From assembly GCA_000818095.1 (NCBI GenBank), contig CP009416.1, forward strand, positions 2,588,501-2,652,500: 64,000 bases of DNA, read 5' to 3'. The translations under genes were made by a program, and so were the position numbers. The notes under the pieces were generated by a model. That model was not told the DNA's origin and ran no database searches. It saw nothing but the letters and a program-made list of their open reading frames with translations. This document shows, piece by piece, positions 5,197-63,528 of the stretch (its first letter is position 1; each line of letters begins with the position of its first letter). The DNA comes from Jeotgalibacillus malaysiensis. GTDB taxonomy: Bacteria; Bacillota; Bacilli; Bacillales; Jeotgalibacillaceae.

Positions 5197-5345
5197 TGTT
5201 TGCGGTTGGTGGTGTCACTACCGTCGATACTTGTTTCACTTCGGCCGGTCCGCTTCTCACTACCGTCGATCCGGGCGTATCCTACCGTCGCGTGGCAAAA
5301 TACTACCACCACAGCTTCTTACATTACCGTCACCGAACTTTATGG
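5197..5345 (-). repeat. 21-bp periodic array 1 (GACGGTAG class)
   Basis: On the minus strand, degenerate units tagged CGACGGTAG or similar begin at 5332, 5311, 5290, 5268, 5247 and 5226, i.e. spacings of 21, 21, 22, 21 and 21 bp. A very weak seventh unit would start at 5205. The third unit is the 22-bp one and contains GATACGCCCGG, a variant of the core seen in the other arrays. It fills most of the 336-bp gap between prfB and the YitT gene. Confidence 0.8.
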
Positions 5346-5373
5346 TTTATGGATCAGGATCACTTTTACCCAT

Positions 5374-5399
5374 AAAAAATCCGCTGCACCAGGCAGCGG
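5374..5399 (-). terminator. Rho-independent terminator of prfB
   Basis: On the minus strand the stem CCGCTGC/GCAGCGG with a short loop is followed by ATTTTTT. It begins eight bases past the prfB stop. Confidence 0.9.
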
Positions 5400-5406
5400 A
5401 AAAATA

Positions 5407-6511
5407 TTAGTTATTGATCTTAGAACGCAAATACGCATTAATGAATGGATCCAAGTCGCCATCCATTACACCCTGCACGTTACCTGATTCTGTACTCGTA
5501 CGATGATCTTTTACCATTGAATAAGGGTGGAAGACGTATGAGCGGATCTGGCTTCCCCAGCCGATTTCCTTTTGTTCACCGCGGATATCAGCAAGCTTTT
5601 GCTCCTGCTCTTCAATCTTCAGCTGATACAGCTTAGATTTCAGCATTTTCATTGCTGATTCACGGTTTTTGATCTGTGAACGTTCAGACTGGCATGATAC
5701 GACTGAGCCGGTTGGAATGTGCGTAATACGTACGGCTGAGTCAGTTGTGTTAATGTGCTGACCGCCGGCGCCGCTTGCACGGTACGTATCAATTTTCAGG
5801 TCTTCCGTTCTGATCTCAATTTCAATTTCATCATTGAATTCAGGCATGATGTCACAAGATACAAATGACGTGTGACGGCGGCCTGATGAGTCAAATGGTG
5901 AAATACGGACTAGGCGGTGAACGCCTTTTTCTGCTTTCAAATAGCCATATGCGTTGTGGCCTTTAAATAGAAGTGTTACAGACTTGATTCCCGCTTCATC
6001 TCCAGGTAGGTAATCAAGTGTTTCCACTTTATAGCCGCGCTTTTCACCCCAGCGCTGATACATACGGAGCAGCATTGAGCCCCAGTCCTGAGACTCTGTA
6101 CCACCTGCACCCGGGTGTAATTCAAGAATAGCGTTGTTTTTATCGTACGGCTCGCTTAACAGCAGTTGAAGTTCAAACTCATCCAAAGTTTTTCGGAAAG
6201 TTTCAAGTTCAGCGACCATTTCAGCGTGCATGTCTTCATCTGCTTCTTCTTTTAAAAGCTCGAGTGTGACTTCAAGGTTTTCCTGTGTATCAACCAGGTT
6301 TTGATAGCCGTTTACGACATCTTTCAGTGCGTTTTGCTCGTTAATGATGCCTTGTGCTTTTTGCTGGTCGTCCCAGAAAGTTGGTTCTACCATGATTTCG
6401 TCGATTTCAGCGAGTTTTGCCTCCTTGTTTTCTAAGTCAAAGAGACCCCCTGAAGTCCGCCAAAACCTTGGCTGTTTTTTCGAGCTCGTTTCTTACGTCT
6501 GATAATTCCAT
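5407..6511 (-). CDS. prfB: Peptide chain release factor 2, with programmed +1 frameshift
   Basis: RF2 recognises UGA and UAA stop codons and triggers peptide release. The gene is in two frames. The first starts at the ATG at 6511 ([12 protein letters not shown]...) and ends after 24 codons at an in-frame TGA (6437-6439). The second carries the rest down to 5407. The usual frameshift signal is present: AGGGGG followed by CTT TGA C. In the main frame the peptide anticodon motif SPF (RISPFDSSG) and the catalytic GGQ loop (SGAGGQHIN) are intact. Combined length is about 367 residues, normal for RF2. It follows secA, as in B. subtilis, but here 471 bp of repeats separate them. Confidence 0.95.
6437..6451 (-). 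promoter_or_regulatory. prfB autoregulatory +1 frameshift site
   Basis: On the minus strand the sequence reads AGGGGG TCT CTT TGA C. The internal Shine-Dalgarno-like AGGGGG, the slippery CTT and the UGA stop are the conserved elements by which low RF2 levels promote a +1 shift and so more RF2. Confidence 0.95.
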
Positions 6512-6564
6512 TTGAGTTCCACCTTATTTTAAAGTTGATTTTGTATGTTGTTTAAAAACCGCTT

Positions 6565-6690
6565 GTGAATTCCATAGAGGGCTGCGCTTTCCGCGGCCGG
6601 TCCGGCAAGCCTCCTCGGCTAAAGCCTGCGGGGTCTCGCCTGGCCCTTCCTGCCGCAGGAGTCTCCGCCCTCCACTCCAATCACAAGCTG
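6565..6690. repeat. GC-rich palindromic repeat, copy A
   Basis: An imperfect palindrome of about 125 bp. It shares CGCTTTCCG, GCCTCCTCGGC, GCCTGCGGGGTCTC and CAGGAGTC..CCGCCCTCCACTCC with four other copies in this window. It is of the GC-rich intergenic repeat type common in Bacillaceae chromosomes. The gap between secA and prfB (6512-6982) contains this copy, copy B and AT-rich sequence, with no gene. Confidence 0.8.
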
Positions 6691-13329: not shown

Positions 13330-13455
13330 CTATGTACACTCCTTTTATTTCGAAATACGAATCAATGCGTTTTATTATAGTCTAAATTGAGGGAAAATTC
13401 TACTTTTGTTGCGAAAAATGTAGAAGTAAGCCCATAATGTTGAGCTTAGAACGGT

Positions 13456-13562
13456 GACGGTAGTATTGTGAGTCGCGACGGTAGGATACACCCGGGTTGA
13501 TGGTAGTGACAACCGCCACGATCGCAGTGACGGCAAAATCGACGGTAGTGACGGTCTCTCAC
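13456..13562 (+). repeat. 21-bp periodic array 2 (GACGGTAG class)
   Basis: Units tagged GACGGTAG or a variant start at 13456, 13477, 13499, 13520 and 13541 (spacings 21, 22, 21, 21). The 22-bp unit at 13477 holds GATACACCCGG. A very weak unit may precede at 13435. It lies upstream of the gamma-glutamyltransferase-like gene and next to the terminator of the SEC-C gene. Confidence 0.8.
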
Positions 13563-14659: not shown

Positions 14660-14767
14660 TTCGGCACTTCCTTTTTAAAATAATCACCCATTATTGTAAC
14701 ACGGGCGCGCCAGAACGCAAAAAGGAGGCGATTTTATAGAGAAAATCACCTGTGTTTTTAGAGAGAA

Positions 14768-14896
14768 ATGTCGATATACTTGCAGAATTTGTTGCGATAC
14801 ACCCGGGCGTTTGTCGATGTTCCAGCTGGAAATGTCTCGATACGCCCGGACGTTTGTCTCAATCCGCAGCCGGTTTGTCGCAATCAAACCTCACCA
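14768..14896 (+). repeat. 21-bp periodic array 3 (TTGTC class, two core units)
   Basis: Units tagged TTGT or ATGT start at 14768, 14789, 14811, 14832, 14854 and 14875 (spacings 21, 22, 21, 22, 21). The 22-bp units at 14789 and 14832 contain GATACACCCGG and GATACGCCCGG. It lies about 110 bp upstream of the SEC-C gene. Confidence 0.85.
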
Positions 14897-14931: not shown

Positions 14932-14987
14932 CCCCCTTCATGCCTTTAAGAAACTAAAAGACTGTTACTCAAGTGCATGAAGCGGGG
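14932..14987. repeat. 50-nt hairpin element, copy 1, abutting array 4
   Basis: CCCC-CTTCATGC (14932-14943) pairs with GCATGAAG-C-GGGG (14975-14987) around TTTAAGAAACTAAAAGAC. A close copy is at 16121-16172 and a diverged one at 60915-60977. Both good copies sit immediately before a 21-bp array. Confidence 0.75.
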
Positions 14988-14994
14988 TGGCTGC

Positions 14995-15118
14995 TTGTCT
15001 GTATTTTCAGCCAGTTTGTAGCATTTCCACCTGGGCTTGTTGCGATACACGAGGCTGATTGTCACGATTCCTACCCAGTTTGTGTCAATCACCGCTAAAT
15101 TTGTCGCCTTCCCCCTCA
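14995..15118 (+). repeat. 21-bp periodic array 4 (TTGTC class)
   Basis: TTGT tags fall at 14995, 15016, 15037, 15059, 15080 and 15101 (21, 21, 22, 21, 21). The third, 22-bp unit contains GATACACGAGG, a degraded core. The last unit overlaps the stop codon of the dehydrogenase gene. Between array 3 and the hairpin element there is nothing recognisable. Confidence 0.85.
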
Positions 15119-16120: not shown

Positions 16121-16172
16121 CATAGCTATGCCTTTAAGAACTGTACAGCTTGTTACCTAAGTGCATGAAGAG
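16121..16172. repeat. 50-nt hairpin element, copy 2, just before array 5
   Basis: The sequence ATGCCTTTAAGAA...GTTACCTAAGTGCATGAAG matches copy 1 at 14932-14987. It ends 14 bp before the first unit of array 5, the same arrangement as copy 1 and array 4. Confidence 0.7.
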
Positions 16173-16185: not shown

Positions 16186-16312
16186 TTGTTTGTGTTTTCG
16201 TTGTAAATGTAGCAATTGTGGCCGGAGTTGTTGCGATACACCCGGAAACTTGTCGCTTTCCGGCCCAGATTTGTCTCATTTCCCGCTTAATTTGTCCGAA
16301 TCACACTCGTGT
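16186..16312 (+). repeat. 21-bp periodic array 5 (TTGTC class)
   Basis: Unit tags (TTGT or ATGT) are at 16186, 16207, 16228, 16250, 16271 and 16292 (21, 21, 22, 21, 21). The third unit holds the core GATACACCCGG. Confidence 0.88.
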
Positions 16313-17110: not shown

Positions 17111-18094
17111 TTAATATGCCCCGCGGATATGCGGATGAACCTCTTTTACATAAAAATCATGGAGCTGATTTAATTCATGCTTTGAAAATGAAGGTGTATT
17201 CAGCGCCTGAAGATTTTCCTGAATCTGCGACTGATTTTTAAAGCCCGGAATCGCACACGTTACTTCTTCCTGATCCAAAATAAAGCGGAGTGCTGCTCGT
17301 GCCATATTTTCTCTTCCTTCAATGATCCACTCAAGCTCTTTTGTCAGCTCAACACCCTTTTTAAAACCAAGCCCGGCAAATGTTTCACCCACATTAAACT
17401 GCTCGCCATTCTCATTAAATCTGCGGTGATCATCCTCTTCAAATTCATGATCCAGACTGAATTTATTGGTCAGCAGTCCACTTGCTAGCGGAAGGCGCGT
17501 GATGATGCCGACACCCTTTCGTTTTGCTTCTACAAACAGCTCTTCTAAAGGCTTTTGACGGAAAAGATTAAAAATCACCTGAAGACTTTTCACATTCGGA
17601 TTCTGAAGACAGATCAGCCCTTCTTCAACTGTTTCCACACTTACGCCGTAATGACGGATTTTACCCTTATCCTGCAGCTGATCCAGCACGCCAAACACGC
17701 TGCCATCCTCTAAAATTTCTTTAGGCGGACAGTGAATCTGATACAGATCAACACGCTCACGCTCTAGACGCTTCAGACTGCCGTCCAAATATGCTTCAAC
17801 CTGTGGCATTTCATATGTTTTTGGATCATGAATATCACCTGCACGGCAAAATTTTGTCGCAATATGAATACTTGACTCCTGGCCTTTTGTCGCTTTTGCT
17901 AATAGTTCTTCACTATGGCCATCACCGTACACATCTGCCGTATCAAAAAAATTCACCCCGCGGTCAATCGCATAATGCAGTGAACGCAGCGCTTCCTGAT
18001 CATCTGACTTCCCCCATGCGCCACCAATGGCCCACGTTCCGAAACTGATCTCACTCAGACTGAGTTCTGTATTGCCTAATTGACGGTATTTCAT
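17111..18094 (-). CDS. Aldo/keto reductase in the xylose operon
   Basis: A 327-residue TIM-barrel oxidoreductase. The catalytic tetrad is visible: D and Y in FFDTADVYG (about residues 50-57), K in IATKF and H in YQIHCPP. It uses NADPH to reduce aldehydes or sugars. The start overlaps the xylB stop by 4 bp (ATGA), so it is part of the xyl operon and may act on a pentose or a side product. The family is closest to the YajO/YghZ type by general sequence pattern; substrate is not known. A worn 20-21-nt TTGT repeat pair lies just downstream (17059-17091). Confidence 0.85.
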   Translation of the reverse strand: MKYRQLGNTELSLSEISFGTWAIGGAWGKSDDQEALRSLHYAIDRGVNFFDTADVYGDGHSEELLAKATKGQESSIHIATKFCRAGDIHDPKTYEMPQVEAYLDGSLKRLERERVDLYQIHCPPKEILEDGSVFGVLDQLQDKGKIRHYGVSVETVEEGLICLQNPNVKSLQVIFNLFRQKPLEELFVEAKRKGVGIITRLPLASGLLTNKFSLDHEFEEDDHRRFNENGEQFNVGETFAGLGFKKGVELTKELEWIIEGRENMARAALRFILDQEEVTCAIPGFKNQSQIQENLQALNTPSFSKHELNQLHDFYVKEVHPHIRGAY

Positions 18095-19599
18095 TTCACA
18101 ACACGCTCCTTACAGTCATTCAGCATTCGACTTAATTCTTTAGTTTGATTGTACACCTGTTTATAGATAGAAAACAAACTTTTGTAAAATTCTTTATTTT
18201 CCATATTTGGTTTCACAACTGTACCTACAGCGAGAAAACGTTCTGCGCATTCAGTAAAATCATTGAACCAGTCTGACCCTACAGCAGCAATCATCGCAGC
18301 GCCCATTCCCGGTCCCTGTTCAGAATTTAATTTCACAACTTCCGCATCAAAAATATCAGCCTGCAGCTGAAGCCAGAAGTCACTTTTTGCTCCGCCACCA
18401 ATTGAAACAATTTGATCAATGACCTTACCTCCATCTCTGAAGATATTGAGTGACTCATTTAATGAAAAGGTAATGCCTTCAAGGACGGCACGCGTAAAAT
18501 GACCTCTTGTGTGTCTTTTGTCCATACCAATAAAGCTGCCGCGTATGATTGCATCCGCAAGAGGTGTACGTTCCCCTGATATGTAAGGAGTAAACACCAG
18601 GCCTTCAGCACCCGCGGGAGTCAATGACGCTTCGCGAACGAGCTCATCAAATGATAGTTCCTGAGCAAAGTTTTTTCTGTACCATGACAGACTGTCTCCT
18701 GCAGCAAGCGTCACACCCATTGTATAATAAGCACCCGGCACGCCGTGGTTAAAGTAATGTACTTTCCCATCAAAATCCAGGTCCCCTCTTTTTTCGTAAG
18801 ACAGAACAACACCCGAAGTTCCGATACTGCACATACTGAGCCCTTCTTTTAAAACGCCTGCACCAATGGCTCCGCACGCATTATCAGCTCCGCCAGCAAA
18901 TACTTTTACAGAAGCGTCCAGACCTGTTTCACTGATCACATCGGGCAGCAGCCCACCTGCCTGATCAGTTGAAAACATCAGCTTCGGACACCGGCTTTCT
19001 TCTATATGAAATGCCTCAAGCACATCACTGCTCCATTCGCCTTTTTCCACATTTAATAAAAGCGTGCCGGCAGCATCTGACAGGTCCATCGCAATCTCAC
19101 CCGTCATGCGGTATCTGACGTAATCCTTTGGCAGCATAAACTGATGAAGCCTCTGCCAGTTGTCAGGCTCATGTTTTTTTACCCAAATCATTTTAGGCAA
19201 AGTAAAGCCCTCAAGTGCAGGATTTTTTGTCAGTTCAAATAGCCGTTGCTCTCCAAGCGTACTGACAATCTCCTGGCATTCCAACGTTGTACGTGTATCA
19301 TTCCATAAAATTGCCGGACGGATCACTTCGCCCTGTGCGTCCACCATGACAAGTCCATGCATCTGCCCTGCAAAGCTGATCCCATCAATCTGCTCACCTG
19401 ACTCAAGTGATGAAGTGATTTCCCTTAACGCCTGAAAGGTTCCGCTCACCCAATCTTCCGGATGCTGCTCAATGTAGCCTGATTGCGTATTGATTACAGG
19501 GTATTCTCTTGATGCTTCCTTTACAACATTTCCTTCACGGTTTACCAAAAGTACTTTCACAGCACTTGTACCCAAGTCGACGCCAACAACGTAATTCAT
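18091..19599 (-). CDS. xylB: Xylulokinase
   Basis: It phosphorylates D-xylulose to xylulose 5-phosphate. At 502 residues it is a normal FGGY-family kinase: N-terminal GVDLGTSAVKVLLV, substrate loop ISFAGQMHGLVMVD with the MHG motif of xylulokinases, and C-terminal ATP site IGGGAKSDFW. It lies 66 bp downstream of xylA behind a G/C hairpin. It overlaps the aldo/keto reductase gene by 4 bp. Confidence 0.95.
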   Translation of the reverse strand: MNYVVGVDLGTSAVKVLLVNREGNVVKEASREYPVINTQSGYIEQHPEDWVSGTFQALREITSSLESGEQIDGISFAGQMHGLVMVDAQGEVIRPAILWNDTRTTLECQEIVSTLGEQRLFELTKNPALEGFTLPKMIWVKKHEPDNWQRLHQFMLPKDYVRYRMTGEIAMDLSDAAGTLLLNVEKGEWSSDVLEAFHIEESRCPKLMFSTDQAGGLLPDVISETGLDASVKVFAGGADNACGAIGAGVLKEGLSMCSIGTSGVVLSYEKRGDLDFDGKVHYFNHGVPGAYYTMGVTLAAGDSLSWYRKNFAQELSFDELVREASLTPAGAEGLVFTPYISGERTPLADAIIRGSFIGMDKRHTRGHFTRAVLEGITFSLNESLNIFRDGGKVIDQIVSIGGGAKSDFWLQLQADIFDAEVVKLNSEQGPGMGAAMIAAVGSDWFNDFTECAERFLAVGTVVKPNMENKEFYKSLFSIYKQVYNQTKELSRMLNDCKERVVK

Positions 19600-19633
19600 C
19601 CTGTTTCCTCCTCTAAATGTAGTTAATATGTAA

Positions 19634-19661
19634 ATCCCCCGGACGAATCTGCCCGGGGGAT
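19634..19661 (-). promoter_or_regulatory. Strong hairpin between xylA and xylB without a T run
   Basis: ATCCCCCGG and CCGGGGGAT form a perfect 9-bp stem around ten bases. On the minus strand only TT and then mixed sequence follows, so it is more likely an mRNA stabiliser or partial attenuator than a full terminator. Confidence 0.6.
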
Positions 19662-19665
19662 CATG

Positions 19666-20994
19666 TTACACGCGTACTTCTGACAGCGTTTCAAGCAGAT
19701 ATTGATTCAGCAGTCCTTTCAGACGCTCCTGTCTGCCTGATTCATTTTGTATTTCACCCAGTGACAGCGCGTATTGCTCAAGTGATTTCAGATCAGCCTT
19801 TCCATTTACAATATCGAGCCCGATGCCTTCTGTAAATGATTTATAGCGGTTTTCGATCACGTTTTCAAACACGCGATCCTCAATCAGTTTAGCAGCAACC
19901 TTTGCACCAATCGCAAAGCTGTCCATGCCGGCAATATGTGCTTCAAGCAGATCCTCCTGTGCAAATGACGCACGTCTCACTTTCGCATCAAAGTTCAGAC
20001 CGCCTGTACCAAGTCCGCCATTCTGGAATATTTCGACCATTGCAAGCGTTGCAGCATACATGTCAGTCGGGAACTCATCCGTATCCCAGCCAAGCAGCGT
20101 GTCCCCCTGGTTCGCATCCACTGAACCGAGCATCCCGTTAATTCTTGCAAGGCGCAGCTCATGTTCAAATGTGTGACCGGCAAGCGTTGCGTGATTGGCT
20201 TCAATATTAAACTTGAAGTGATCAGCCAGGTCATATTTCTGCAGGAATGACAGGCTCGTTGCCACATCAAAGTCATACTGATGCTTGGTCGGTTCTTTTG
20301 GCTTTGGCTCAATCAGGAACTGTCCTGTATAGCCGATCTCTTTTGCATAATCGACTGCTAAATGAAAGAAGCGCGCCATGTTTTCCATTTCAAGTTTCAT
20401 GTCAGTATTCAGGAGCGTTTCATACCCCTCACGTCCGCCCCAGAATACATAATTCTCAGCACCAAGCTTCTTCGCTGTATCAAGCCCCTTTTTCACCTGA
20501 GCAGCCGCATAAGCAAAAACGTCTGCGTTATTCGTTGTTGCACCGCCGTGCACGTAGCGCGGGTGAGTAAACAGGTTGGCAGTATTCCATAAAAGTTTTG
20601 TATCAGATGTTTTCATATAAGACTCGATCATTTCAGCAATTTCATCAAAGTTTTTAAATGACTCCTTCAGCGAACTGCCTTCCGGTGCAACGTCCACATC
20701 ATGGAAGCAGAAGTAAGGGACACCAAGCTTTTCAAAAAACTCGAATGCTGCTTCCACACGCGCTTTTGCAAGGTCCATCCCGCTGAAGCGGTCCCATGAA
20801 CGGATCATGGTCGGTGCGCCGAATGGATCCGTTCCGTCTGCTGTAAACGTATGCCAGTAGGCCACTGAAAAGCGCATCCACTCAGCCATTGTCTTCCCGT
20901 TTACCGTTTCATCCGCTTTATAATATTTAAACGCTTGCGGATTTTTTGAACCCGCTCCCTCGAATTGAATCTTTCCTTCATTAAAATGTGTCAT
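19666..20994 (-). CDS. xylA: Xylose isomerase
   Basis: It interconverts D-xylose and D-xylulose. The 442-residue length fits the long class II enzymes. Catalytic and metal-binding motifs are intact: [12 protein letters not shown] (catalytic His), [36 protein letters not shown] and [12 protein letters not shown]. The start overlaps the mutarotase stop by 4 bp. It feeds xylB directly downstream. Confidence 0.97.
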
Positions 20995-21893
20995 TTGACT
21001 TCCTCCTCTAATGGTCTGATTTCGATTGTTGCTTCAACGCTCAGCGTATTTCCCGGCGCGATCGCCTGAAAACCCGAAGCAGGATCGTTTTGTAAATGTG
21101 GTGCATTTGTAATCCAAGTATATGGCTCTGGACAGATAAATCCTTTTCCTTCGTGGAAGATTACCCAATTTGTAAAAGCGTCAGACACTTGATAATCAAT
21201 CCTGATGTTCTCATCCGGTCTGATGATAGAAACTTTCCGTTCACCGTTATCTGTAAACGCATCATCCAGCATCACATTTTTAAGAGATGATGGAATATGA
21301 GCAGTACTTCTCTTTCCGGTCGGAAGATTTCTCTCATTTAGCTCCCACTGCTGTTCAACAGAAGCTTGAAAAATATCAGTTGATGCATCAAAAACAAAGC
21401 TTGTATGCCAGCCAAATCCTGCAGGCATCTCACTTTCACTCAGATTTTTGATCCGGCAGCGTTTTATCAGCAAGTCACCTGTCAGTTCAAAATCAAGTTC
21501 CACTTTAAAATGATGTGAAAATCCTTCTGAAATTTCAGGATGATCTGCACTGTCAAAAACAGCTGTCAGCGCAGACTTTGACTGACTTTTAATTTGAAAC
21601 GGACGGTCGCTCACAAACCCATGAATATGGTTATTCAGTTCTGGTTCATTTATAGGCAGATGATAGTAAATGCCGTTAAAGCTGAACTGCCCGTCCTCGA
21701 TTCTGTTTGGCGGAAACAGCACCGGAGTACCGTATAAGATCTTTCTTTTTAAGTATGATTCCTGATCTGTTGGAGCCCTTAGAATTTCAGCTGATCCTCT
21801 CTTTAAAGACATCAGATTGGCACCTTCAGATGGAATAATGACAGCTGTTAACTGTCCATTTTTCAGTTCGATTGCATCATGAAACCACTCCAG
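20991..21893 (-). CDS. Aldose 1-epimerase (mutarotase), probable CTG start
   Basis: A galactose-mutarotase-like beta-sandwich that interconverts sugar anomers, presumably xylose or xylo-oligosaccharides here. The first ATG in frame (21812) would leave out the usual first strands. In the same frame an upstream stretch reads [20 protein letters not shown], which is the conserved N-terminus of the family. No ATG, GTG or TTG lies there, but a CTG at 21893 has AAAGGAGG nine bases upstream. From CTG the protein is 300 residues. It keeps the active-site pattern NNHIHGF and a C-terminal Glu region (CPEPYTW). It overlaps the DUF624 gene by 17 bp and xylA by 4 bp. Confidence 0.75.
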
Positions 21894-22509
21894 TTTGAAG
21901 CGCCTCCTTTTTCCTGCTGATCTGGATAAAACGGTGGTAGGCCGGCACCATAAATGCGACTGCGAATGTCACGAGTCCGAAAAACGGGAACAGTGCCGGC
22001 ATGGCCGCAAACACCAGGACGAGTGCTGCTGCACTGAACGCCATCAGTAACGTGTGGAGCGGACTGATGAGTGCAATGAGCGCTGCATGTTTCACCATTT
22101 GCATAAAACTGAGCTCATAGTGAACCCATACCGGAAACAGATACAGCGTGATGCCACCGATTACTGTGATAAAAAGGACTGTTGCTGCAAGCTGTACCGG
22201 ATGAGCGCCGCCGTTAATCATAAAAAACGCTGCTTGTGTCATTAGCAAAATGAGTATGCCCGTGAACAGTATCACCGGCTTCCATGACCTGGTGCAGGCT
22301 GTCATAAATGCTGTGTGAAACGTCCGCCAGATTTTCAGGTCCGTTTCTCCACGCAGCCATGTTCTGATGACTGTGAATGCAGCAATCGCTGTTGGTACAG
22401 CGGTTAAACCGAGGCCTGCGATCAGATAGCCGAGCCAGATCAGATTCAGTAACGCCCCTTTTGAGATCCATTCACATAGTGTGTAAAGCCCGTTCATGGT
22501 CTTTTCCAT
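21877..22509 (-). CDS. DUF624 (YesL-family) membrane protein
   Basis: A 210-residue membrane protein with about five hydrophobic helices and the family start GLYTLCEWISKGALLNLIW. YesL-type proteins usually sit next to carbohydrate ABC transporters, as here, but have no proven function. The ATG at 22509 is preferred because AGGAG is nine bases upstream; this overlaps the end of the xylosidase gene by 38 bp. Confidence 0.8.
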   Translation of the reverse strand: MEKTMNGLYTLCEWISKGALLNLIWLGYLIAGLGLTAVPTAIAAFTVIRTWLRGETDLKIWRTFHTAFMTACTRSWKPVILFTGILILLMTQAAFFMINGGAHPVQLAATVLFITVIGGITLYLFPVWVHYELSFMQMVKHAALIALISPLHTLLMAFSAAALVLVFAAMPALFPFFGLVTFAVAFMVPAYHRFIQISRKKEALQTGVVS

Positions 22510-24619
22510 GAACCTCATCTCCTTTGGATTCTTCAAGCCATAAAATACTTGTCACGCCGCGCGGATAATATTTACTGCCCGCAATTTCTCCGTTAATAAT
22601 CTGATCACTCCAGCTCCAGAATGACAGTTCAGGATGCGTCAGCCACTGCACGTGCGCAGCATCTGCTGATGAATCGACGTTTTTCCCCATAATTTCCCGG
22701 GCAATAAACTGACACAGATAAATTTTGCTGAGCCATGAGTTGCCGCTTGTTGAAGAAAGCTTCCAGCCGTTGTCATCAAAGAGGCAGATGCCTTTTTTCA
22801 GAACTGCATCATAGTGAGTATGAAGTGCTTCTAAATAAGTTTTGAATGGGCCGTTTTCATCCAGTGCTTTTTCAATCCCAAGTACGTAAGGGAAAATGAG
22901 GCCTTCAATGGCCGGGATGATTTTCGAGTCGTTGTTTTCACCCATGACTGCCGGAATGTAACCTTCTGAAGTTGCAAAGGAAACCATTGTTTCAGCTGCT
23001 TTTTCAGCCTGACTGTAAGCCTGTTTTGCGAAATCAGATTCGCCAAGATCATTCAGCAATTGTTCAAGTGCCAAATAAGATGCCCACGTTTTACCTGCAA
23101 GATACAGATTATTTCTCGCCTGGCCGAGTGAAACATCGAGACTGTCATACGTTGTAATCTCAGCCCCGCCCATCGTTCTTGATGAATCTAGCGCCATAAT
23201 ACCGTTGCGTTTAGACGGCTCCGGATGATCACGGTTCACAAGACTTTCCAGACAGTCTTTTACAACCTGCGCATTTTGCTTAAGCCAATTCTGATCACCT
23301 GATTGCTTTACATACACAGCCGCCGTCAGAATCCAGTTCACCAGCTGCTCATGCGTCATATGTGAGAAACAGCCATCAATGCCGTACAACTCATACGATG
23401 AGTAACCCGGTCTAGAAAATGTATTGGCAACGCCCATGTCATGCGTAAAACTGATCCCGCCCGGATACGTTTTTTCTTCGCCCGGAAATCTCACTTCATC
23501 ACGATAGCTGTAACGCTCAATAAATAAATCAAGCTCATTTTTCACCGTCCATGGATTCATCTTCATTTCATAAAACAGCTGATCCACTGTCAGGTCAAAC
23601 GTATTCATCATTCGGTATTCACCTTCATTCACAACCCATAAAGGCTTGCCGTCCTGCTCTAAAAACTGAGTGGAACCGTAATAGCTTCTGATCGCATGAT
23701 TCATCATAAAGCGCTGATCGTCTGTCAGGTGCGCTGAGTCAGTAAGCTGATTCGCTGCGACTGAGCGCTCTTTCAGTTCTTCAAAGTGCTTATGTGAATA
23801 AGCGGCTACTTCTTCAATCGAGTCAAACAGTTTTATGTAGTAGTAGCTGCTTTTCATACCTGCCGTAATATTGCCGTCTCTGTAAAAGCTGATCACAATA
23901 TCAAGCGTCTTCTTCTCACCTGCAGGCACATCAATAATGAGCGTCCCTACAGTCCCTAATCCAAACGCCCAGTTTTCCTTGTGTGGATCAGTCAGGATAT
24001 TTTCAAGGCTGAAATGCATTGCGGAATATGCATCAGGATCCTGCGTCGTGACTGCAGTAAATGTCCCCTGCCCAAATCCTTTTGCATCCATCGTGTCATC
24101 AAGCTTTCTGACAGATGTATAAGCGTCAGTTCCCTGGTAGCCGAAAAATGCTCTTCGTGTGCGGCTGCCTTTTGTATTATCGATTGTCAGTGTGGCAAGA
24201 ACGCTTGGTATAATGACTTTTTTCATCTCTTCGTCACTTGCCTGATCAGGATCCGGAACGCTTTCTGCTTTTGAATAGATCGTGAGTGTTAGATCGCCTG
24301 CTGTAAAAGTGTCAGTTCCTACGTTGAAATCACGCTTGATTTTATCCTGAGCATACCGGTGCAGGATTTTTGGTTTATCAGGATCTGGGTCCATATTTTC
24401 AATGTCGTAACGCTTGCTTTCTTCTTCAGTCAGCTGGTGGAAAAACGGGAATGCATCAAACTGACCTTCCTGCTCAGCAGATTCGAGTCCGATATAAACG
24501 TTTTGCGCAGGTGAACGTCCAAGTTCTACATCCAGACCGCCTCCAGCACCCGGAAAGCCAAGTGTGAAGCTCGAAAATGCTCCGATTGGTGAATGATGTG
24601 CGTTGAAAAATTGATTCAT
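22472..24619 (-). CDS. Intracellular GH52 beta-xylosidase
   Basis: It releases xylose from xylo-oligosaccharides. The 715-residue protein has no signal peptide and matches the GH52 family over its length: FFNAHHSPIGAFSSFTLGFP at the N-terminus, the nucleophile region WVVNEGEYRMMNTFDLTVDQ, the proton-donor region DSSRTMGGAEITTYDSLD and SKYYPRGVTSILWLEE near the end. In Geobacillus enzymes the catalytic pair is a Glu in the first region and an Asp in the second. Both are present. The ATG at 24619 fits AAAGGA eight bases upstream. Between it and the permease lies 21-bp array 6. Confidence 0.95.
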   Translation of the reverse strand: MNQFFNAHHSPIGAFSSFTLGFPGAGGGLDVELGRSPAQNVYIGLESAEQEGQFDAFPFFHQLTEEESKRYDIENMDPDPDKPKILHRYAQDKIKRDFNVGTDTFTAGDLTLTIYSKAESVPDPDQASDEEMKKVIIPSVLATLTIDNTKGSRTRRAFFGYQGTDAYTSVRKLDDTMDAKGFGQGTFTAVTTQDPDAYSAMHFSLENILTDPHKENWAFGLGTVGTLIIDVPAGEKKTLDIVISFYRDGNITAGMKSSYYYIKLFDSIEEVAAYSHKHFEELKERSVAANQLTDSAHLTDDQRFMMNHAIRSYYGSTQFLEQDGKPLWVVNEGEYRMMNTFDLTVDQLFYEMKMNPWTVKNELDLFIERYSYRDEVRFPGEEKTYPGGISFTHDMGVANTFSRPGYSSYELYGIDGCFSHMTHEQLVNWILTAAVYVKQSGDQNWLKQNAQVVKDCLESLVNRDHPEPSKRNGIMALDSSRTMGGAEITTYDSLDVSLGQARNNLYLAGKTWASYLALEQLLNDLGESDFAKQAYSQAEKAAETMVSFATSEGYIPAVMGENNDSKIIPAIEGLIFPYVLGIEKALDENGPFKTYLEALHTHYDAVLKKGICLFDDNGWKLSSTSGNSWLSKIYLCQFIAREIMGKNVDSSADAAHVQWLTHPELSFWSWSDQIINGEIAGSKYYPRGVTSILWLEESKGDEVHGKDHERALHTM

Positions 24620-24693
24620 GCGGGTCATCCTTTCTTGTTATGTAATTTGGTTGTATGGATTGGTGGCTGGGCGGGTGGAGCCTGGTGGCGGAA

Positions 24694-24822
24694 TTGTCGC
24701 AATTATGGCCGGGTTTGTCTGAGTTTCTCCGCCGTTTGTAGTGATACACCCGGCCATTTGTCCGAATCGCCCGCCAGTTTGTCGCATTCCGCCCCGGATT
24801 ATGTCATATCCGCCGGACTACG
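24694..24822 (+). repeat. 21-bp periodic array 6 (TTGTC class), inside the xylan operon
   Basis: TTGT tags are at 24694, 24715, 24736, 24758 and 24779, with ATGT at 24801 (spacings 21, 21, 22, 21, 22). The third unit contains GATACACCCGG. It separates the permease stop (24835) from the GH52 start (24619), within what would otherwise be one operon. Confidence 0.87.
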
Positions 24823-24834
24823 GGCCATCTCACC

Positions 24835-25737
24835 TCACCCTTTAACTGAACCAGCCGAAATCCCCTCAACAATCCGGTCACTCAGGAAAATAAATGCGAT
24901 TAAAATCGGCAGAATACTGATCACAAGCGTTGCACCGATCGCACCCCAGTCTGTTGAGTACTGGCCGATAAAGTTCTGAATACCGACTGTCAGCGTTTTG
25001 AACTGATCAGCACTGATAAACGTGTTAATAAATACAAATTCGTTCCAGTTATAGATCATGTTGATGATGGCAGCTGTTGCAATAACAGGTGCTGTCATCG
25101 GCAGTGTGATCTGGAAAAAGATTCTATGAACAGAAGCCCCATCTATCACAGCGGCCTCTTCCACTTCTCGCGGCAGCACCTGATAAAATCCGTATAGAAT
25201 CATAATCGTGATTGGCAGGTTAAACGCCGTGTATGTCAGGATAATTGATAACGGATGATTGATCAGGTCCAGATTTGAAAATGTGTTAAACAACGGAATC
25301 AGTGTTGAGTGAACCGGAATCATTAATCCAACCATGAACAGTCCGAGAAACAGGCTGCTCTTTTTCCACTTCATTCTCGTCAGTGCAAATGTGGCCATAC
25401 TTGCAAAAAGAATAGTCAGTAGCACGGCTGAACCTGTATAAAGCACGCTGTTAAAGAAGTACTGACTGATGTTGCCTTCTGTCCAGACTCTGATATAGTT
25501 CTCCCATCTTGGTGTGGCAGGGAGTGCAAATGGTGAGAGTTCAAATACTTCCTGATTATTTTTCAGTGAAAATAAAACGAGCCATACGAGCGGGAATATC
25601 TGGAACACGCCGACAATCGCAAGCACGATATATAAAAGCGTCATGCTGATTGTATGTCTGATCTTCCCCTTACTTTGTTCCGCAGCTTTCTGGCGTGCTA
25701 ATGCGGATTGTTTTTCAGTCAATGCTTCATTTCGCAT
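24835..25737 (-). CDS. ABC sugar permease, MalG/XynG type
   Basis: A 300-residue inner-membrane permease with six helices. The EAA loop that contacts the ATPase is EEAAVIDGASVHRIFFQITL (about residues 195-215). It pairs with the other permease 12 bp upstream. No ATPase gene is in the window, which is normal for these importers because a shared MsmX-type ATPase serves them. The C-terminus SAGSVKG is typical of the MalG subfamily. Confidence 0.92.
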   Translation of the reverse strand: MRNEALTEKQSALARQKAAEQSKGKIRHTISMTLLYIVLAIVGVFQIFPLVWLVLFSLKNNQEVFELSPFALPATPRWENYIRVWTEGNISQYFFNSVLYTGSAVLLTILFASMATFALTRMKWKKSSLFLGLFMVGLMIPVHSTLIPLFNTFSNLDLINHPLSIILTYTAFNLPITIMILYGFYQVLPREVEEAAVIDGASVHRIFFQITLPMTAPVIATAAIINMIYNWNEFVFINTFISADQFKTLTVGIQNFIGQYSTDWGAIGATLVISILPILIAFIFLSDRIVEGISAGSVKG

Positions 25738-25749
25738 AAAGCAGCCTCC

Positions 25750-26628
25750 TTAATATTGAATATCTTCATCTGACACAGTCACTTTTCTAATCAGCCAAGT
25801 AATTAACAGACAGATCACGAGCAGGAAGAATCCGATGGCACTTGCATAACCGAAGTCAAATCGGCTGAATGCCTGACCGTACATATACGATGCCATTACT
25901 TCACTCGCACCGTTTGGCCCACCGTTTGTCATGACATAAATGAGGTCAAAGTATTTCAGTGAACCGACCACTGCGAGTACGATCGTAACTTTAATTACGT
26001 TCATGATCAGCGGAACTTTGATTTTCCAGGCAATATCCCAGGCACTTGCACCGTCGATCTTTGCTGACTCGACAAGTGATTCCGGAATATTTTTCAGTGC
26101 TGCGTAATAGATCAGAATATAAAAGCCTGCGTACTGCCAAATGATCGGGATAAAGATCGCAAACAAAGCGAGTGATGGTTCAGCAAGCCACGCCGGCGGA
26201 TTTTCGATTCCAATTGAAATTAACAGTGTGTTTAAAATCCCGTTTGTCGGGTGGTAAATTTTCATCCAGAGCTGCGCAATTGCCACTGAAGCGAGCAGCA
26301 TAGGGACGAGATATATTTTTCTGAGAAAATTCGCCCCTTTAATTTTTCCTGCAAGGACAAGCGAGATCAGCAGATAGCCAATCAGGCTCAGTGCTGAAAA
26401 AACAGCCAGCAGCAGTGAGTGCCAGGCACTGTCCCAAAACGCTGCATCCCTGATCAGTAATGTGTAATTTTCAAGTCCAATAAAGGTCATCTCCCCAATC
26501 CCGTTCCAGTCCATCAAGCCGAAATAGCCGGTCTGGAATATTGGGATGTAAACCAGCGCAAGGAGTAAAAGCAGGCCCGGCGCCAGATAAAGGGCAATCA
26601 TTTTCTTACTTGATAAAGCCTGATCCAT
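25750..26628 (-). CDS. ABC sugar permease, MalF/XynF type
   Basis: A 292-residue permease with six helices and the EAA loop ESAKIDGASAWDIAWKIKVP. The ATG at 26628 (MDQALSSKK) has AAAGGA nine bases upstream; an earlier ATG is too close to that site. It is 377 bp downstream of the binding-protein gene, and that gap holds a terminator-like hairpin and a GC-rich palindrome. Confidence 0.92.
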   Translation of the reverse strand: MDQALSSKKMIALYLAPGLLLLLALVYIPIFQTGYFGLMDWNGIGEMTFIGLENYTLLIRDAAFWDSAWHSLLLAVFSALSLIGYLLISLVLAGKIKGANFLRKIYLVPMLLASVAIAQLWMKIYHPTNGILNTLLISIGIENPPAWLAEPSLALFAIFIPIIWQYAGFYILIYYAALKNIPESLVESAKIDGASAWDIAWKIKVPLIMNVIKVTIVLAVVGSLKYFDLIYVMTNGGPNGASEVMASYMYGQAFSRFDFGYASAIGFFLLVICLLITWLIRKVTVSDEDIQY

Positions 26629-26689
26629 CTGAATCATTCCTTTCATGGTGTCGAGCGGTGTATAGCATTTTAAAAATGTGCGGCAGATC

Positions 26690-26815: not shown

Positions 26816-26949
26816 CATACTGAACATTTTGCATGTAAGTAGAAAGTTAATTAGATTGCACAGCTGAGGCTAAAGCAGAAACCGTCCGCCTGTAGCGAAA
26901 ACCTCAACCAATTGGCATTAAACGAGCTTTCTTCCCCAAATTTTGCGTA

Positions 26950-31078: not shown

Positions 31079-31213
31079 GCTATCGATTTTACGGATACAG
31101 CACTCAAATGGGAAAATACAACCTTCGTGGACGATCTAACTGCATTCACCCCGGGTGTATCGCTACCTCAATTCAGTTTATACCTACCTCAAAATCTATT
31201 TGACTTCATTCAG
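31079..31213 (-). repeat. 21-bp periodic array 7 (TTGAG class)
   Basis: On the minus strand unit tags (TTGAGGTAG, TTGAGTGC and variants) start at 31213, 31192, 31171, 31149, 31128, 31107 and 31086 (spacings 21, 21, 22, 21, 21, 21). The third unit contains GATACACCCGG. It lies between the kinase start and the chemoreceptor terminator. Confidence 0.8.
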
Positions 31214-33099: not shown

Positions 33100-33248
33100 T
33101 CGAATGTCATAGAGTAGACAATCGACGTATGTATCTTCCAGTTTGAAGTAGCAATACACCCGGATTGAGTGCGGTAAGATGGCGACTGAGTGTTGTATCA
33201 CGCCAGTTGACTGCAGTATCGCTACAATCGACAGCTCTCTTCCTCTAC
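33100..33248 (+). repeat. 21-bp periodic array 8 (TTGAG class)
   Basis: Tags TCGA, TTGA or CTGA are at 33100, 33122, 33143, 33165, 33186, 33207 and 33228 (22, 21, 22, 21, 21, 21; the first unit is weak). The unit at 33143 carries AATACACCCGG. With array 7 it encloses the chemoreceptor gene, in opposite orientation. The 32951-33335 gap holds this array, the framing repeats and the YjfB terminator, and no gene. Confidence 0.82.
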
Positions 33249-44871: not shown

Positions 44872-44910
44872 TTTAAAAAGGCAACCTGTACAATTGTACG
44901 GTTGCCTTAA
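44872..44910 (-). terminator. Terminator of the hag2-hag1 transcript
   Basis: On the minus strand AAGGCAACC and GGTTGCCTT pair, with an inner GTACAATTGTAC palindrome, followed by TTTTT. It separates the strongly expressed flagellins from the Maf gene. Confidence 0.92.
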
Positions 44911-44913
44911 GTT

Positions 44914-45729
44914 TTATCTAAGTAGCTGTAATACACCTTGTGGTTGTTGGTTAGCCTGTGCCAGCATTGCCTGCGCCGCTTGAGAAAGGATAGAGTTCTT
45001 AGTCTGCTCCATCATCTCCTTAGCCATATCTACATCACGAACTCGTGACTCGGCTGCCGTAAGGTTTTCTGCACCTGTATTCAGGTTATTAATTGTATGC
45101 TCCAAGCGGTTTTGTACTGCACCAAACTTTGAACGCATTTCTGATACAGTTTCAATCGCGCTGTTAATATCACTAATAGCCGAGTTTGCATTAGCTCTGC
45201 TATCAACAGTAATTGCCGCTAAGCTTAAACCAAGAGCTGTTGCAGTCATTTTCGAAATTGTCATTGCAATAACCTGACCTGAATTTGCTCCAACCTGGAA
45301 TTCATAAGTACCTGCAGTACTGATTAATTTCTGTGTATTAAATTCAGTTTCATTAGCAATACGAGTAACCTCGCTCTTTAATTGCTTTAACTCATCTCCA
45401 ATTGCAGTACGGTCATCTGTAACGTTAGTATCGTTCGAGGCTTGTACTGCTAGCTCTCTCATACGCTGAAGAATCGAATGAGTTTCATTCAATGCACCTT
45501 CAGCCGTTTGAATTAGAGAAATACCATCTTGTGCATTTCTTGATGCCTGCTCTAAACCGCGGATCTGTCCACGCATTTTTTCAGAAATTGAAAGACCAGC
45601 TGCATCATCACCTGCTCGGTTAATTCGCAGTCCAGAAGATAGCTTTTCCATAGACTTTGATTGATCCAAATTCGCCGCACCAAATTGACGGTGTGTGTTA
45701 AGAGCTGCAATATTGTGATTAATAATCAT
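44914..45729 (-). CDS. hag: Flagellin, copy 1
   Basis: A 271-residue flagellin made of the conserved D0/D1 parts and a very short central region. The N-terminus [20 protein letters not shown] and C-terminus [20 protein letters not shown] polymerise; only residues about 115-205 differ from copy 2. The ATG at 45729 follows AAGGAGGAG. A CsrA-type hairpin lies in the leader. It is probably glycosylated by the Maf proteins next door. No promoter is seen in the 57 bp after copy 2, so the two are likely bicistronic. Confidence 0.96.
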
Positions 45730-45753
45730 TTTTTCTCCTCCTTGAATGTATGT

Positions 45754-45771
45754 GTTCACTTCCTTGTGAAC
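45754..45771 (-). promoter_or_regulatory. CsrA-type hairpin in the hag1 leader
   Basis: On the minus strand GTTCAC-AAGGAA-GTGAAC: a perfect 6-bp stem with a GGA in the loop, about 25 bases ahead of the start. A second GGA is in the Shine-Dalgarno sequence (45735-45743). This two-site design is how CsrA represses hag in B. subtilis. Confidence 0.75.
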
Positions 45772-45786
45772 TAAATATAACTAGTA

Positions 45787-46602
45787 TTATCTAAGTAGCT
45801 GAAGTACCCCTTGTGGTTGCTGGTTAGCCTGCGCCAACATTGCCTGAGCTGCTTGAGAAAGAATAGAATTTTTAGTCTGCTCCATCATTTCTTTAGCCAT
45901 ATCTACATCGCGTACTCGTGATTCGGCTGCCGTAAGGTTCTCTGCACCCGTGTTCAGGTTATTAATCGTATGCTCTAGTCGGTTTTGGACTGCACCAAAC
46001 TTTGAACGCATTTCCGAAACAGATTTGAGCGCGTCATTAATATTTGTGATTGCTGCATTAGCATTTGTTCTAGTCGTAACTGTAATAGCACCTGCTGTTA
46101 ACCCTAATGCATCAGCTGACATAGTAGTAATCGAAAGAGCAATAACCTGACCTGAGTTTGCTCCAACCTGGAATTCATAAGTACCTGAAGCACTGATTAA
46201 TTTCTGTGTATTAAACTCAGTTTCATCAGCAATTCGAGTGATCTCACTTCTTAGTTGAGTAAGTTCATTGCTAATTGCAGTACGGTCATCTGTAACGTTA
46301 GTATCGTTCGAGGCTTGTACTGCTAGCTCTCTCATACGCTGAAGAATCGAATGAGTTTCATTCAATGCACCTTCAGCCGTTTGAATTAGAGAAATACCAT
46401 CTTGTGCATTTCTTGATGCCTGCTCTAAACCGCGGATCTGTCCACGCATTTTTTCAGAAATTGAAAGACCAGCTGCATCATCACCTGCTCGGTTAATTCG
46501 CAGTCCAGAAGATAGCTTTTCCATAGACTTTGATTGATCCAAATTCGCCGCACCAAATTGACGGTGTGTGTTAAGAGCTGCAATATTGTGATTAATAATC
46601 AT
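45787..46602 (-). CDS. hag: Flagellin, copy 2
   Basis: A 271-residue flagellin nearly identical to copy 1. Its first half and leader match copy 1 base for base (46273-46644 with 45400-45771). The last third encodes the same residues but with many synonymous differences. The variable part is residues about 115-205. It is first after a sigma-D-like promoter and carries its own CsrA-type hairpin and AAGGAGGAG ribosome binding site. Confidence 0.96.
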   Translation of the reverse strand: MIINHNIAALNTHRQFGAANLDQSKSMEKLSSGLRINRAGDDAAGLSISEKMRGQIRGLEQASRNAQDGISLIQTAEGALNETHSILQRMRELAVQASNDTNVTDDRTAISNELTQLRSEITRIADETEFNTQKLISASGTYEFQVGANSGQVIALSITTMSADALGLTAGAITVTTRTNANAAITNINDALKSVSEMRSKFGAVQNRLEHTINNLNTGAENLTAAESRVRDVDMAKEMMEQTKNSILSQAAQAMLAQANQQPQGVLQLLR

Positions 46603-46626
46603 TTTTTCTCCTCCTTGAATGTATGT

Positions 46627-46644
46627 GTTCACTTCCTTGTGAAC
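46627..46644 (-). promoter_or_regulatory. CsrA-type hairpin in the hag2 leader
   Basis: The same GTTCAC-AAGGAA-GTGAAC hairpin as before hag1, at the same distance from the start codon. The sequence identity between the two leaders ends exactly at its 5' base. Confidence 0.75.
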
Positions 46645-46693
46645 AATAATGATAACTCCCTAGTTGGCCAATTCCAGAGTGGTTACAATATTT

Positions 46694-52865: not shown

Positions 52866-53678
52866 TTATTGAAGCAGTTGCAGAATGCCCTGTGGCAGCT
52901 GGTTTGCCTGCGCAAGCATTGCCTGTCCTGCCTGGTTAAGAATATTGTTTCTTGTGAACTGTGACATTTCTTTTGCCATGTCAAGGTCACGGATACGTGA
53001 TTCTGCTGCAGTCAGGTTTTCGTTAGCTGACTGGAGGTTAGTGACTGTATGCTCGAGGCGGTTTTGGAATGCGCCAAGTTTGCTGCGTTGTTCAGAGACT
53101 CTTTCGATTGCTGTGTCAATAGTAGTAATTGCACCTGAAGGAGTTGCACTATCAAGCGCTAAACCTGAAATTCCAAGACTTCCTGCGTCCATGTTTTCCA
53201 ATGTGAGTGTAATATCTTCTCCTTGATTAGCACCAATTTGAAATAGAAATCCACTTGCTGCTGTTCCATCCATTAAAACTTTATTGTTAAACTGAGTCGT
53301 TTCAGCAATTCGATCAATTTCTTCAGTCAAAGCATCTGCTTCAGCCTGAATCGCTTCACGATCTTCCGGTTCAAGTGTTCCGTTTGAAGATTGAACGGCA
53401 AGCTCACGCATTCTCTGTAAGATATCATGTGTAGAAGCCAATGCACCTTCTGCAGTCTGGATCAATGAAATACCGTCAAGCGCATTACGCTCGGCCATCT
53501 CAAGACCACGGATCTGTGAACGCATCTTCTCTGAAATCGCAAGACCTGCTGCATCATCTGCCGCACGGTTAATACGAAGACCTGAAGAAAGTTTCTCAAG
53601 ACTCTTTGATGTATCATTCATTGTTTGATTTAAGTTTCTGTATGCATTTAACGCCTGGATATTATGGTTAATTCTCAT
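52866..53678 (-). CDS. Third flagellin
   Basis: A 270-residue flagellin that differs from copies 1 and 2 throughout ([40 protein letters not shown]). Like them it has almost no D2/D3 domain. It starts three bases after the stop of a second fliS, so its ribosome binding site (GGAAGCGGGG) is inside the fliS end and the two are coupled. No CsrA-type hairpin is seen in front of it. It could be a minor or alternative filament subunit. Confidence 0.94.
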   Translation of the reverse strand: MRINHNIQALNAYRNLNQTMNDTSKSLEKLSSGLRINRAADDAAGLAISEKMRSQIRGLEMAERNALDGISLIQTAEGALASTHDILQRMRELAVQSSNGTLEPEDREAIQAEADALTEEIDRIAETTQFNNKVLMDGTAASGFLFQIGANQGEDITLTLENMDAGSLGISGLALDSATPSGAITTIDTAIERVSEQRSKLGAFQNRLEHTVTNLQSANENLTAAESRIRDLDMAKEMSQFTRNNILNQAGQAMLAQANQLPQGILQLLQ

Positions 53679-60914: not shown

Positions 60915-60977
60915 GCTGTAAACCCTCTTGATGGGTTTGAGAAACTAAAGGCCTGTTTCTTAAGGTCATTAAGAGGA
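60915..60977. repeat. Diverged copy of the 50-nt hairpin element
   Basis: GAGAAACTAAAGGCCTGTTTCTTAAG..CATTAAGAGGA resembles the centre and right arm of the element at 14932-14987. No 21-bp array follows. The 267-bp gap around it shows no gene. Confidence 0.5.
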
Positions 60978-62986: not shown

Positions 62987-63296
62987 GGTCATCCCCCCAA
63001 ACACTTTCATAAAAACAATCTCACATTTGCTATATCGTCCTTTATATCCAAATCTGAAACAATATTTTGAAAATTATCACCTATTCACTCAATTATTTGA
63101 TCATATGAAACCAAATACATCTTATTCTAAAATGTTTATTTAAAAATTGATGATTATAGTGACTTTATATTCATGACTAAAGTATGTTTAATGAATTTTA
63201 TTTTAACCTCTGCATTTTCATAAACACAATTTTTACATTTTCATTCTGAAAAACTTTATGTAATTCTACTTTACAGATCTATAAAAAACTTCTTAA

Positions 63297-63326
63297 TTGA
63301 CAACTTGTATATACACGTTATAGGAT
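63297..63326 (+). promoter_or_regulatory. Promoter of the trehalose operon with TreR-like operator
   Basis: A perfect -35 TTGACA (63297-63302) is followed, after 16-18 bases, by a weak -10 (TATAGG or TAGGAT). Between them TTGTATATACAC (63305-63316) matches 11 of 12 bases of the TreR palindrome TTGTATATACAA. The operator lies where a repressor would block RNA polymerase. The rest of the 672-bp gap to the left is AT-rich with no gene. Confidence 0.65.
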
Positions 63327-63338
63327 AGGAATTGCTAA

Positions 63339-63354
63339 ATGAAAGCGCTGTTTA
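63339..63354 (+). promoter_or_regulatory. Weak cre-like site after the tre promoter
   Basis: ATGAAAGCGCTGTTTA fits the CcpA box WTGNAANCGNWNNCAW except at two fixed positions. It is just downstream of the promoter, a usual place for CcpA repression. Confidence 0.35.
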
Positions 63355-63396
63355 TTGAGAGCGTTGTTGATTTGAGGTAGTTCGGGCGAGGGTCAG

Positions 63397-63528
63397 GACA
63401 GACAACCTGGGGATTGCGACATTTCAGGCGCGGATACAGACATACTGCGCGGCAATTGCAACAAATCGCCGGGTGTATCGCGACATCCCAGAAGAAAAAA
63501 GATACAACTCGAGCGACGACCGCTGCAA
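63397..63528 (-). repeat. 21-bp periodic array 9 (TTGTC class) in the treP leader
   Basis: On the minus strand five-base tags (ATGTC, TTGTC or variants) occupy 63524-63528, 63503-63507, 63482-63486, 63460-63464, 63439-63443, 63418-63422 and 63397-63401 (spacings 21, 21, 22, 21, 21, 21). The third unit has GATACACCCGG. It lies between the tre promoter and the treP start. Confidence 0.83.

Follow-up and report, generated by a model that had tools for sequence, protein, structure and literature searches.

Phased intergenic arrays of 21-bp units in Jeotgalibacillus: dispersed candidate binding sites for a nucleoid-structuring protein

The REP/BIME elements of enterobacteria (repetitive extragenic palindromic sequences and bacterial interspersed mosaic elements) are dispersed and extragenic, form hairpin composites and are restricted to particular lineages. 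The bcr1 repeat of the Bacillus cereus group and other MITEs (miniature inverted-repeat transposable elements) are lineage-specific intergenic repeats of 70-300 bp, while iterons and type II par centromeres are 20-22-bp direct repeats spaced by two helical turns, with protein on one face of the DNA. Described here is a family of intergenic arrays that resembles each of these in part. It was noticed within a 64,000-nucleotide stretch of the Jeotgalibacillus malaysiensis chromosome (termed here the window), for which an earlier inspection of the sequence (the original prediction) had claimed nine arrays of degenerate units with a 21-bp period and a single 22-bp core unit. That observation is genuine: all nine arrays are present, close to where they had been placed, and they belong to a phased intergenic array family that, as far as searched, had not been recognized before. 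Searches of the literature on Jeotgalibacillus genomes, dispersed and 21-bp repeats, nucleoid occlusion, gyrase, BIMEs and bcr1, with subscription literature mostly outside their scope, returned no description of such arrays by title or opening of the abstract, and the main text of a Jeotgalibacillus paper (PMC5027565) contains none of the words repeat, intergenic and tandem. The reading preferred here, at roughly even odds (a probability of about 0.5), is that the arrays are dispersed DNA-level binding and wrapping sites for a nucleoid-structuring protein, kept by selection.

The arrays are BIME-like in lifestyle, being likewise dispersed, extragenic, joined into hairpin composites and lineage-restricted, but they have a different anatomy: BIMEs are short palindromes, whereas the array units are direct repeats, phased at 21 bp, with no consensus fold, one core unit and array-specific tags. 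The units themselves are not palindromic; solely the separator between arrays is hairpin-like. As with bcr1 and other MITEs, the arrays are lineage-specific intergenic repeats in a genome of the Bacillales; MITEs, however, carry terminal inverted repeats, whereas here the repeats are direct and the inverted repeat is internal. With iterons and par centromeres the arrays share short direct repeats at two helical turns (and, putatively, the binding of a protein), but they number about 70 on the chromosome, have no match on the megaplasmid contig and lie beside diverse genes. A further comparison is with the REPs tagged by GTAG or CGTC that are mobilized by RAYTs (REP-associated tyrosine transposases): according to a paper that also names bcr1 as a MITE (PMC3733652), these lie mostly behind coding regions and are palindromes of 20-40 bp with a short tag, such as GTAG, at one end, the GTAG repeats being given there for other phyla. 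Many array tags likewise hold GTAG or GTCG, and the arrays too are mostly behind genes, but they have no consensus stem.

Array anatomy was derived from 189 arrays in five genomes, namely that of the window (G000) and those of four other array-bearing congeners (G006, G007, G008 and G011). These were kept from 210 profile hits in fetched DNA, the other 21 being left out for a score below 22 bits, a core match below 9/11 or a close locus edge; the fetched loci were chosen for their arrays, and in the four other species just the listed arrays were sampled, which leaves their sets incomplete. An array spans about 127 bp and comprises two 21-bp units, the 22-bp core unit with GATACACCCGG, and three more 21-bp units. 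The core unit carries 26.1 bits of information, the two units to its left (-2 and -1) 9.1 and 9.3 bits, and those to its right (+1 to +3) 9.1, 7.2 and 5.4 bits, while units outside the array carry 1.0-2.6 bits; the core is therefore third of six, as had been predicted. The 21-bp period, on the other hand, is the usual register rather than an absolute one, as 115 of 171 long hits show no net insertion or deletion and 53 are off by 1. Strand composition also drifts along the array, with G and T prevailing on its left and C and A on its right, the skew of G over C going from +0.34 at unit -3 through +0.10 at unit -2 and -0.22 at unit -1 to between -0.33 and -0.56 at units +1 to +4. A coding array was considered and set aside, since the 22-bp core unit interrupts a 7-codon reading frame; 27 of the 189 arrays overlap an open reading frame (ORF) with cross-species support by more than 60 bp, which was taken, without single checks, to reflect ORFs running through the array.

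Within the window the core GATACACCCGG is matched at 11/11 positions in six arrays, at 10/11 in two and at 9/11 in one. Self-identity at lag 21 over the nine arrays, for which no model was used, is 0.441, as compared with 0.216-0.289 at lags 15-20 and 22-29 and with a maximum of 0.367 in 500 sets of random window segments, and 20 dinucleotide-shuffled windows gave no profile match. A profile built from other species' arrays alone recovers all nine window arrays at 20.6-57.1 bits; its 138 kept arrays from four species were themselves found with a G000-derived model, so that independence of the two sets is incomplete. The family thus recurs outside the window and no control equalled its periodicity, so that on both counts by which it might have fallen it stands.

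Each unit includes a 10-nt tag (unit columns 20-21 plus 1-8) that covaries between the units of one array; columns 9-10 are A-T in most units and columns 11-18 show little covariation. Tags are indeed alike within an array, as the original prediction had it, since within-array identity lies above all 1000 permutations in each of the five genomes (for G000, 0.579 versus a permutation mean of 0.450 and maximum of 0.488). The three tag types then proposed give way, however, to five over the clade, assigned by similarity to chosen consensus tags and overlapping one another. By this assignment G000 has 37 arrays of class A, 8 of C, 5 of B and 1 of D, and G007 has 24 of D, 3 of E, 3 of A and 1 unclassed, the remaining species being mixed. 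Between distant species the class can differ at the same locus (at 2564108, A in G000 versus D in G007). A candidate for a concerted tag switch between sister species (G007:C2:218262 versus G011:C28:1426) was withdrawn because G007 has a second array of the matching class (218477, class E).

The arrays are also phased with the DNA helix. Over 127 bp, the mean A+T power of an array at a period of 10.5 bp is 1.375, or 1.007 when the 11-bp core is left out, whereas 3605 random genome segments give 0.241 (for a period of 21 bp the corresponding values are 0.515, 0.166 and 0.264), and the phase is continuous, at 9.84 left of the core, 9.96 within it and 9.69 to the right. DNA bent around a protein would be expected to show a signal of this kind, and the strongest rival for that protein is DNA gyrase. 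In one source (PMC6379681), the intergenic element BIME-2 is described as holding gyrase sites, which are over-represented there, and the E. coli gyrase motif as 130 bp long with a 10.75-bp GC periodicity, its sites being concentrated downstream of transcription units and depleted in Ter. The arrays, like this motif and the strong gyrase site of phage Mu, combine a length near 130 bp with a GC/AT phase of about 10.5 bp, are often located behind genes and seldom near dif, and as strong gyrase sites wrapped behind transcription units they would call for no clade-specific protein. We nevertheless think this quite unlikely: the gyrase motif is degenerate and has no 26-bit core, 21-bp tags or hairpin partner, so that the array core and covarying tags are far more specific; the array phase passes through the core, with no counterpart of the separate central part that the gyrase motif has; and the seven congeners that lack the family presumably also have gyrase.

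The five array-bearing species are related salt-loving bacteria among 12 Jeotgalibacillus genomes. Exact cores, counted independently of the array profile model, number 42 in G000, 50 in G008 and 35, 22 and 36 in the other three, as against 0-2 in each of the seven remaining congeners; the reversed pattern occurs 0-1 times in all 12 genomes and not at all in G000. The five species probably form one clade, because a comparison of one protein places them closest to one another (identity with the G008 sequence is 75-81%, versus at most 63% for the others). Of 101 relatives searched with the model, 5 had the family, and a search of 397 genomes across the order (strict filters, eight candidates scored per genome) recovered these 5 and no others, so that it was found in none of the 385 genomes from outside the genus. 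Loci of the seven congeners that lack the family, some overlapping and together about 130 kb long, take in two positions at which arrays are known; none of this DNA scored above 6.1 bits. A collection of 84,980 species, which may leave out records near the window and was scanned with a pattern that fits tag class A only, yielded three exact pattern hits, which scored 12.6-13.7 bits in the core part alone. Phage or plasmid origin was considered and set aside: one composite had no match in phage and plasmid collections, and two exact pattern hits in viral contigs gave no array-profile match up to an E value of 10.

In G000 at least 78 model matches (E ≤ 1, with 150 of 485 candidates scored) amount to about 70 arrays, some of them split, at about 55 loci. 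All are chromosomal, at 27-950 kb and 2326-3508 kb, as are all 42 exact cores, at 322-896 kb and 2344-3493 kb, with none in 0.90-2.34 Mb. Given dnaA at C1:856 and, at C1:1725813, an exact match to what we take to be the dif consensus, contig C1 is taken as the chromosome opened at its origin, and the 0.6 Mb on either side of dif (1726 kb) are free of exact cores. Neither an exact core nor a model match occurs on the megaplasmid (the second contig, 603070 bases). In G008 the contig that bears dif (C2, 985,906 bp) has none of the 50 exact cores. Scarcity around dif is common to G000 and G008 without being absolute, and it follows no simple gradient, as the densest part of G000 (about 2.42-2.66 Mb) is near the edge of the zone.

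Apart from exceptions among model matches on the dif contig of G008, the arrays thus share terminus scarcity with nucleoid-occlusion sites, which raises the question whether they are Noc, ParB or other partition-type sites of known segregation proteins. At least four exact G000 Noc sites, among the matches listed, are likewise origin-side, and an array lies between two ParB-family genes in three species (G000:C1:3507537-3507659, where it adjoins a soj-like gene, G008:C1:23102-23223 and G011:C30:168855-168975). Yet the core GATACACCCGG differs from the palindromic Noc site ATTTCCCGGGAAAT, each of the 12 species, whether or not it bears arrays, has 7-23 canonical Noc sites (at most 1 mismatch), and each of the 12 genomes has exactly two ParB-family matches. 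With Noc sites thus separate in 12/12 species, and no extra ParB-family protein in those bearing arrays, Noc/ParB was ruled out as the known system, and this reading is most improbable.

For the analysis of flanks, genes were ORFs with cross-species support, and 33 of the 189 arrays, lacking a flank, were set aside. The other 156 comprise 118 in tandem, 23 in convergent and 15 in divergent gaps; the arrays are extragenic, dispersed and mostly outside divergent promoter regions. In long segments, themselves picked because they bear arrays, gaps of 150-1500 bp are occupied by an array in 25 of 69 cases between tandem genes, in 6 of 9 between convergent genes and in 2 of 10 between divergent genes. 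In tandem gaps 55 of the 118 arrays start 35-90 bp after the stop codon and 39 start 200-334 bp after it, the latter as a rule being second members of pairs. A start close behind the stop codon would suit arrays acting as RNA (a 3' untranslated structure or a small RNA) or as operators of neighboring genes, as would the potential of the separator to form a hairpin and the one array in ten that folds better than most of its shuffles (z -2.4). But both strands are used about equally (53 arrays on the same strand as the tandem genes, 65 on the opposite one), 31 arrays yield no consensus structure, and the folding z-scores of the ten arrays, from -2.4 to +1.2, are not unusual as a set; no Rfam match reaches the gathering score within the window, the genes beside arrays are diverse, with no common theme by eye, and divergent promoter regions are few. 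An RNA or operator role is accordingly very unlikely.

Retention between species was assessed with hits of at least 24 bits, which gave 215 array-to-array pairings (not independent of one another) with common flanking orthologues, orientation being kept in 213. When G000 at 2.577-2.6525 Mb (about 4.6 kb left out) is compared with G008 C1 at 0.945-1.023 Mb, 8 of 9 array-bearing gaps keep an array, one of these eight G000 gaps being a 13-kb stretch with two arrays; two gaps have arrays solely in G008, and one of them keeps a lone hairpin in G000. The scaffolds of orthologous arrays are 0.35-0.45 identical in five of six species pairs, versus 0.33-0.36 for random array pairs; for G000 and G008 the values are 0.45 versus 0.34, and outside the array 0.32-0.34 versus 0.27. 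To judge from these identities, the 11-bp core would hardly survive at such divergence without selection or repair, and correction against other copies is unlikely to account for this by itself, given a scaffold identity of just 0.35 between the loci of one genome.

A pattern scan revealed 43 hairpin-like separators: 28 have an array on either side, 9 on one side only and 6 on neither, some of these 6 looking like chance matches. From the start of the left core unit to that of the hairpin the distance is usually 105-109 bp, and direct array pairs often flank a hairpin. In the consensus of 14 of the 43, which were folded, a mismatched stem encloses a conserved loop and compensatory change is seen in 1 of 12 predicted pairs, so that the separator may be read as DNA or as RNA. 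The earlier suggestion that the element spreads as a whole gains support: composites at different loci of one genome, some only 7-20 kb apart, align through the first array, the hairpin and the second array at 67-82% identity over about 200-390 bp (array rows among the best 70, that is the longest, of 650 self-matches), and the element therefore spread or was copied as a unit. Members of a pair are more alike (scaffold identity 0.49) than other arrays (0.35), and in the G000 pair at 537 kb the two are nearly identical. Eight aligned composites show no terminal inverted repeat evident by eye, and the copies are too diverged to show target-site duplications. Separately, at G006:C1:202531-205883 a chemoreceptor-like gene and its adjacent array are seemingly tandem-duplicated (78% over 1266 bp), one array having been copied along with the gene.

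Whole-unit alignment, the likeness of pair members and the lone hairpin left in G000 where G008 has arrays would all suit a non-autonomous mobile repeat (MITE- or BIME-like) with no host function, whose spread would explain the number of arrays and whose decay would explain their degeneracy. So would a cobalamin-gene locus that has an array pair in G000 and G008, none in G007 or G011 and a weak hit (16.8 bits) in G006, from which it follows that array losses or gains occur. Yet the keeping of period, core and, mostly, orientation in those eight gaps, where the rest is near saturation, misfits neutral decay; no different-locus match above 82% occurs among the array rows of the best 70 of 650 self-matches, so that no recent transposition is seen; and no family array was found outside the clade. 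A purely mobile repeat is, on balance, unlikely.

The preferred reading, sites for a nucleoid-structuring protein, starts from strand independence, helical phase, lack of RNA structure and retention, which together point to a DNA-level site for a protein. The binding array for an architectural protein that the original prediction envisaged is favored in its first part by these features and by the two-turn repeat; its architectural part we infer. As a mechanism, a sequence-specific protein would nucleate at the 22-bp core unit and contact the 10-nt tag every two helical turns, on one face of the DNA, while the 10.5-bp alternation of A+T and G+C would allow the approximately 127 bp to bend around it. 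Such sites would have multiplied in the ancestor of one Jeotgalibacillus clade, becoming dispersed behind genes as array-hairpin-array composites, and selection would now maintain them, mainly on the origin side of the chromosome; judging by their position, they would most likely serve nucleoid or supercoil organization. A bolder and more doubtful proposal, though one that merits statement, is that of an undescribed chromosome-organizing system, in which a clade-specific protein wraps about 127 bp at about 55 origin-side intergenic loci, with more than 1.3 Mb around dif free in G000 and a macrodomain-like boundary. On this proposal, the tags of an array would have to agree with one another but could shift jointly from species to species, in co-evolution with reader proteins of drifting specificity.

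Several points weigh against sites of this kind. The 10.5-bp signal is in part a consequence of the tags themselves. Gap retention was measured in one region of about 75 kb, partly chosen for arrays, and in one species pair, and in two of the eight gaps shared with G008 the array is flipped. Since the orthologous arrays were detected by a model that rewards the core, the conservation of the core partly reflects the selection of hits, and in the sister pair G007/G011, with a scaffold identity of 0.70 versus 0.38 for random pairs, common ancestry could be enough to account for retention. At least two model matches fall on the G008 contig with dif: one, at 933 kb, scores 47.2 bits, and the other, at 476 kb and thus 146 kb from dif, scores 30.6 bits. 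Scarcity near dif could be historical rather than functional. Nor would one expect a single reader protein to go with tags that vary from array to array within a genome. The search for a cognate protein, which covered the ParB/Noc family, found none, that family having no clade-specific member.

The window arrays themselves are as follows. Array 1 (5207..5312, minus strand) has the tag GACGGTAG, class B by eye, and a score below the limit of the 189-array set; array 2 (13443..13551, plus strand) is also of class B, and each of the two is opposite in orientation to the array in the same G008 gap. Arrays 3 (14756..14887) and 4 (14996..15116), both on the plus strand and of class A, had been counted as two, at 14768 and 14995, but are the left and right members of a single composite, joined by the hairpin separator at 14940..14979 (plus strand); array 3, with the tag TTGTC, has two core units 43 bp apart, and array 4 ends at the stop of the next gene. 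Array 5 (16187..16308, plus strand, class A) has the top score in the window, 78.2 bits, and to its left is a hairpin-like separator (16126..16172, plus strand) read by eye and outside the pattern-scan matches. Array 6 (24695..24815, plus strand) is of class A, array 7 (31088..31200, minus strand), with TTGAG, and array 8 (33122..33225, plus strand) are of class C, and array 9 (63408..63524, minus strand) is of class A. A lone hairpin separator without arrays lies at 60931..60970 (plus strand); the same gap in G008 gives three array hits. Near array 8, at 33060-33300, and at loci of several species (among them L002, L008 and L100), a palindromic repeat around GGGTCAGACCC / GGGACTGTCCCGGGTCTTC adjoins arrays; by eye it is unrelated to the 21-bp units. 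Elsewhere in the window, positions 18094-31262 (13 kb) hold genes of sugar use and transport (an FGGY kinase, GH52, ABC permeases, a solute-binding protein and an AraC-type two-component regulator), where G008 has merely 2.8 kb between the same neighbors, and positions 44910-46657 hold two tandem flagellin genes (by Pfam) of 281 aa each, 88% identical over 875 bp, with a further similar stretch at about 53381-53610.

Few bacterial site families are known to us that mark one part of the chromosome and avoid another: the Noc, SlmA, MatP and RacA sites. With the arrays, it becomes possible to test outside the enterobacteria whether intergenic repeats of BIME type serve a function or are selfish. 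If they are indeed sites for a nucleoid-structuring protein, then the genus, with five species that have them and seven congeners that do not, would provide a natural experiment on the co-evolution of a DNA-organizing protein and its sites.

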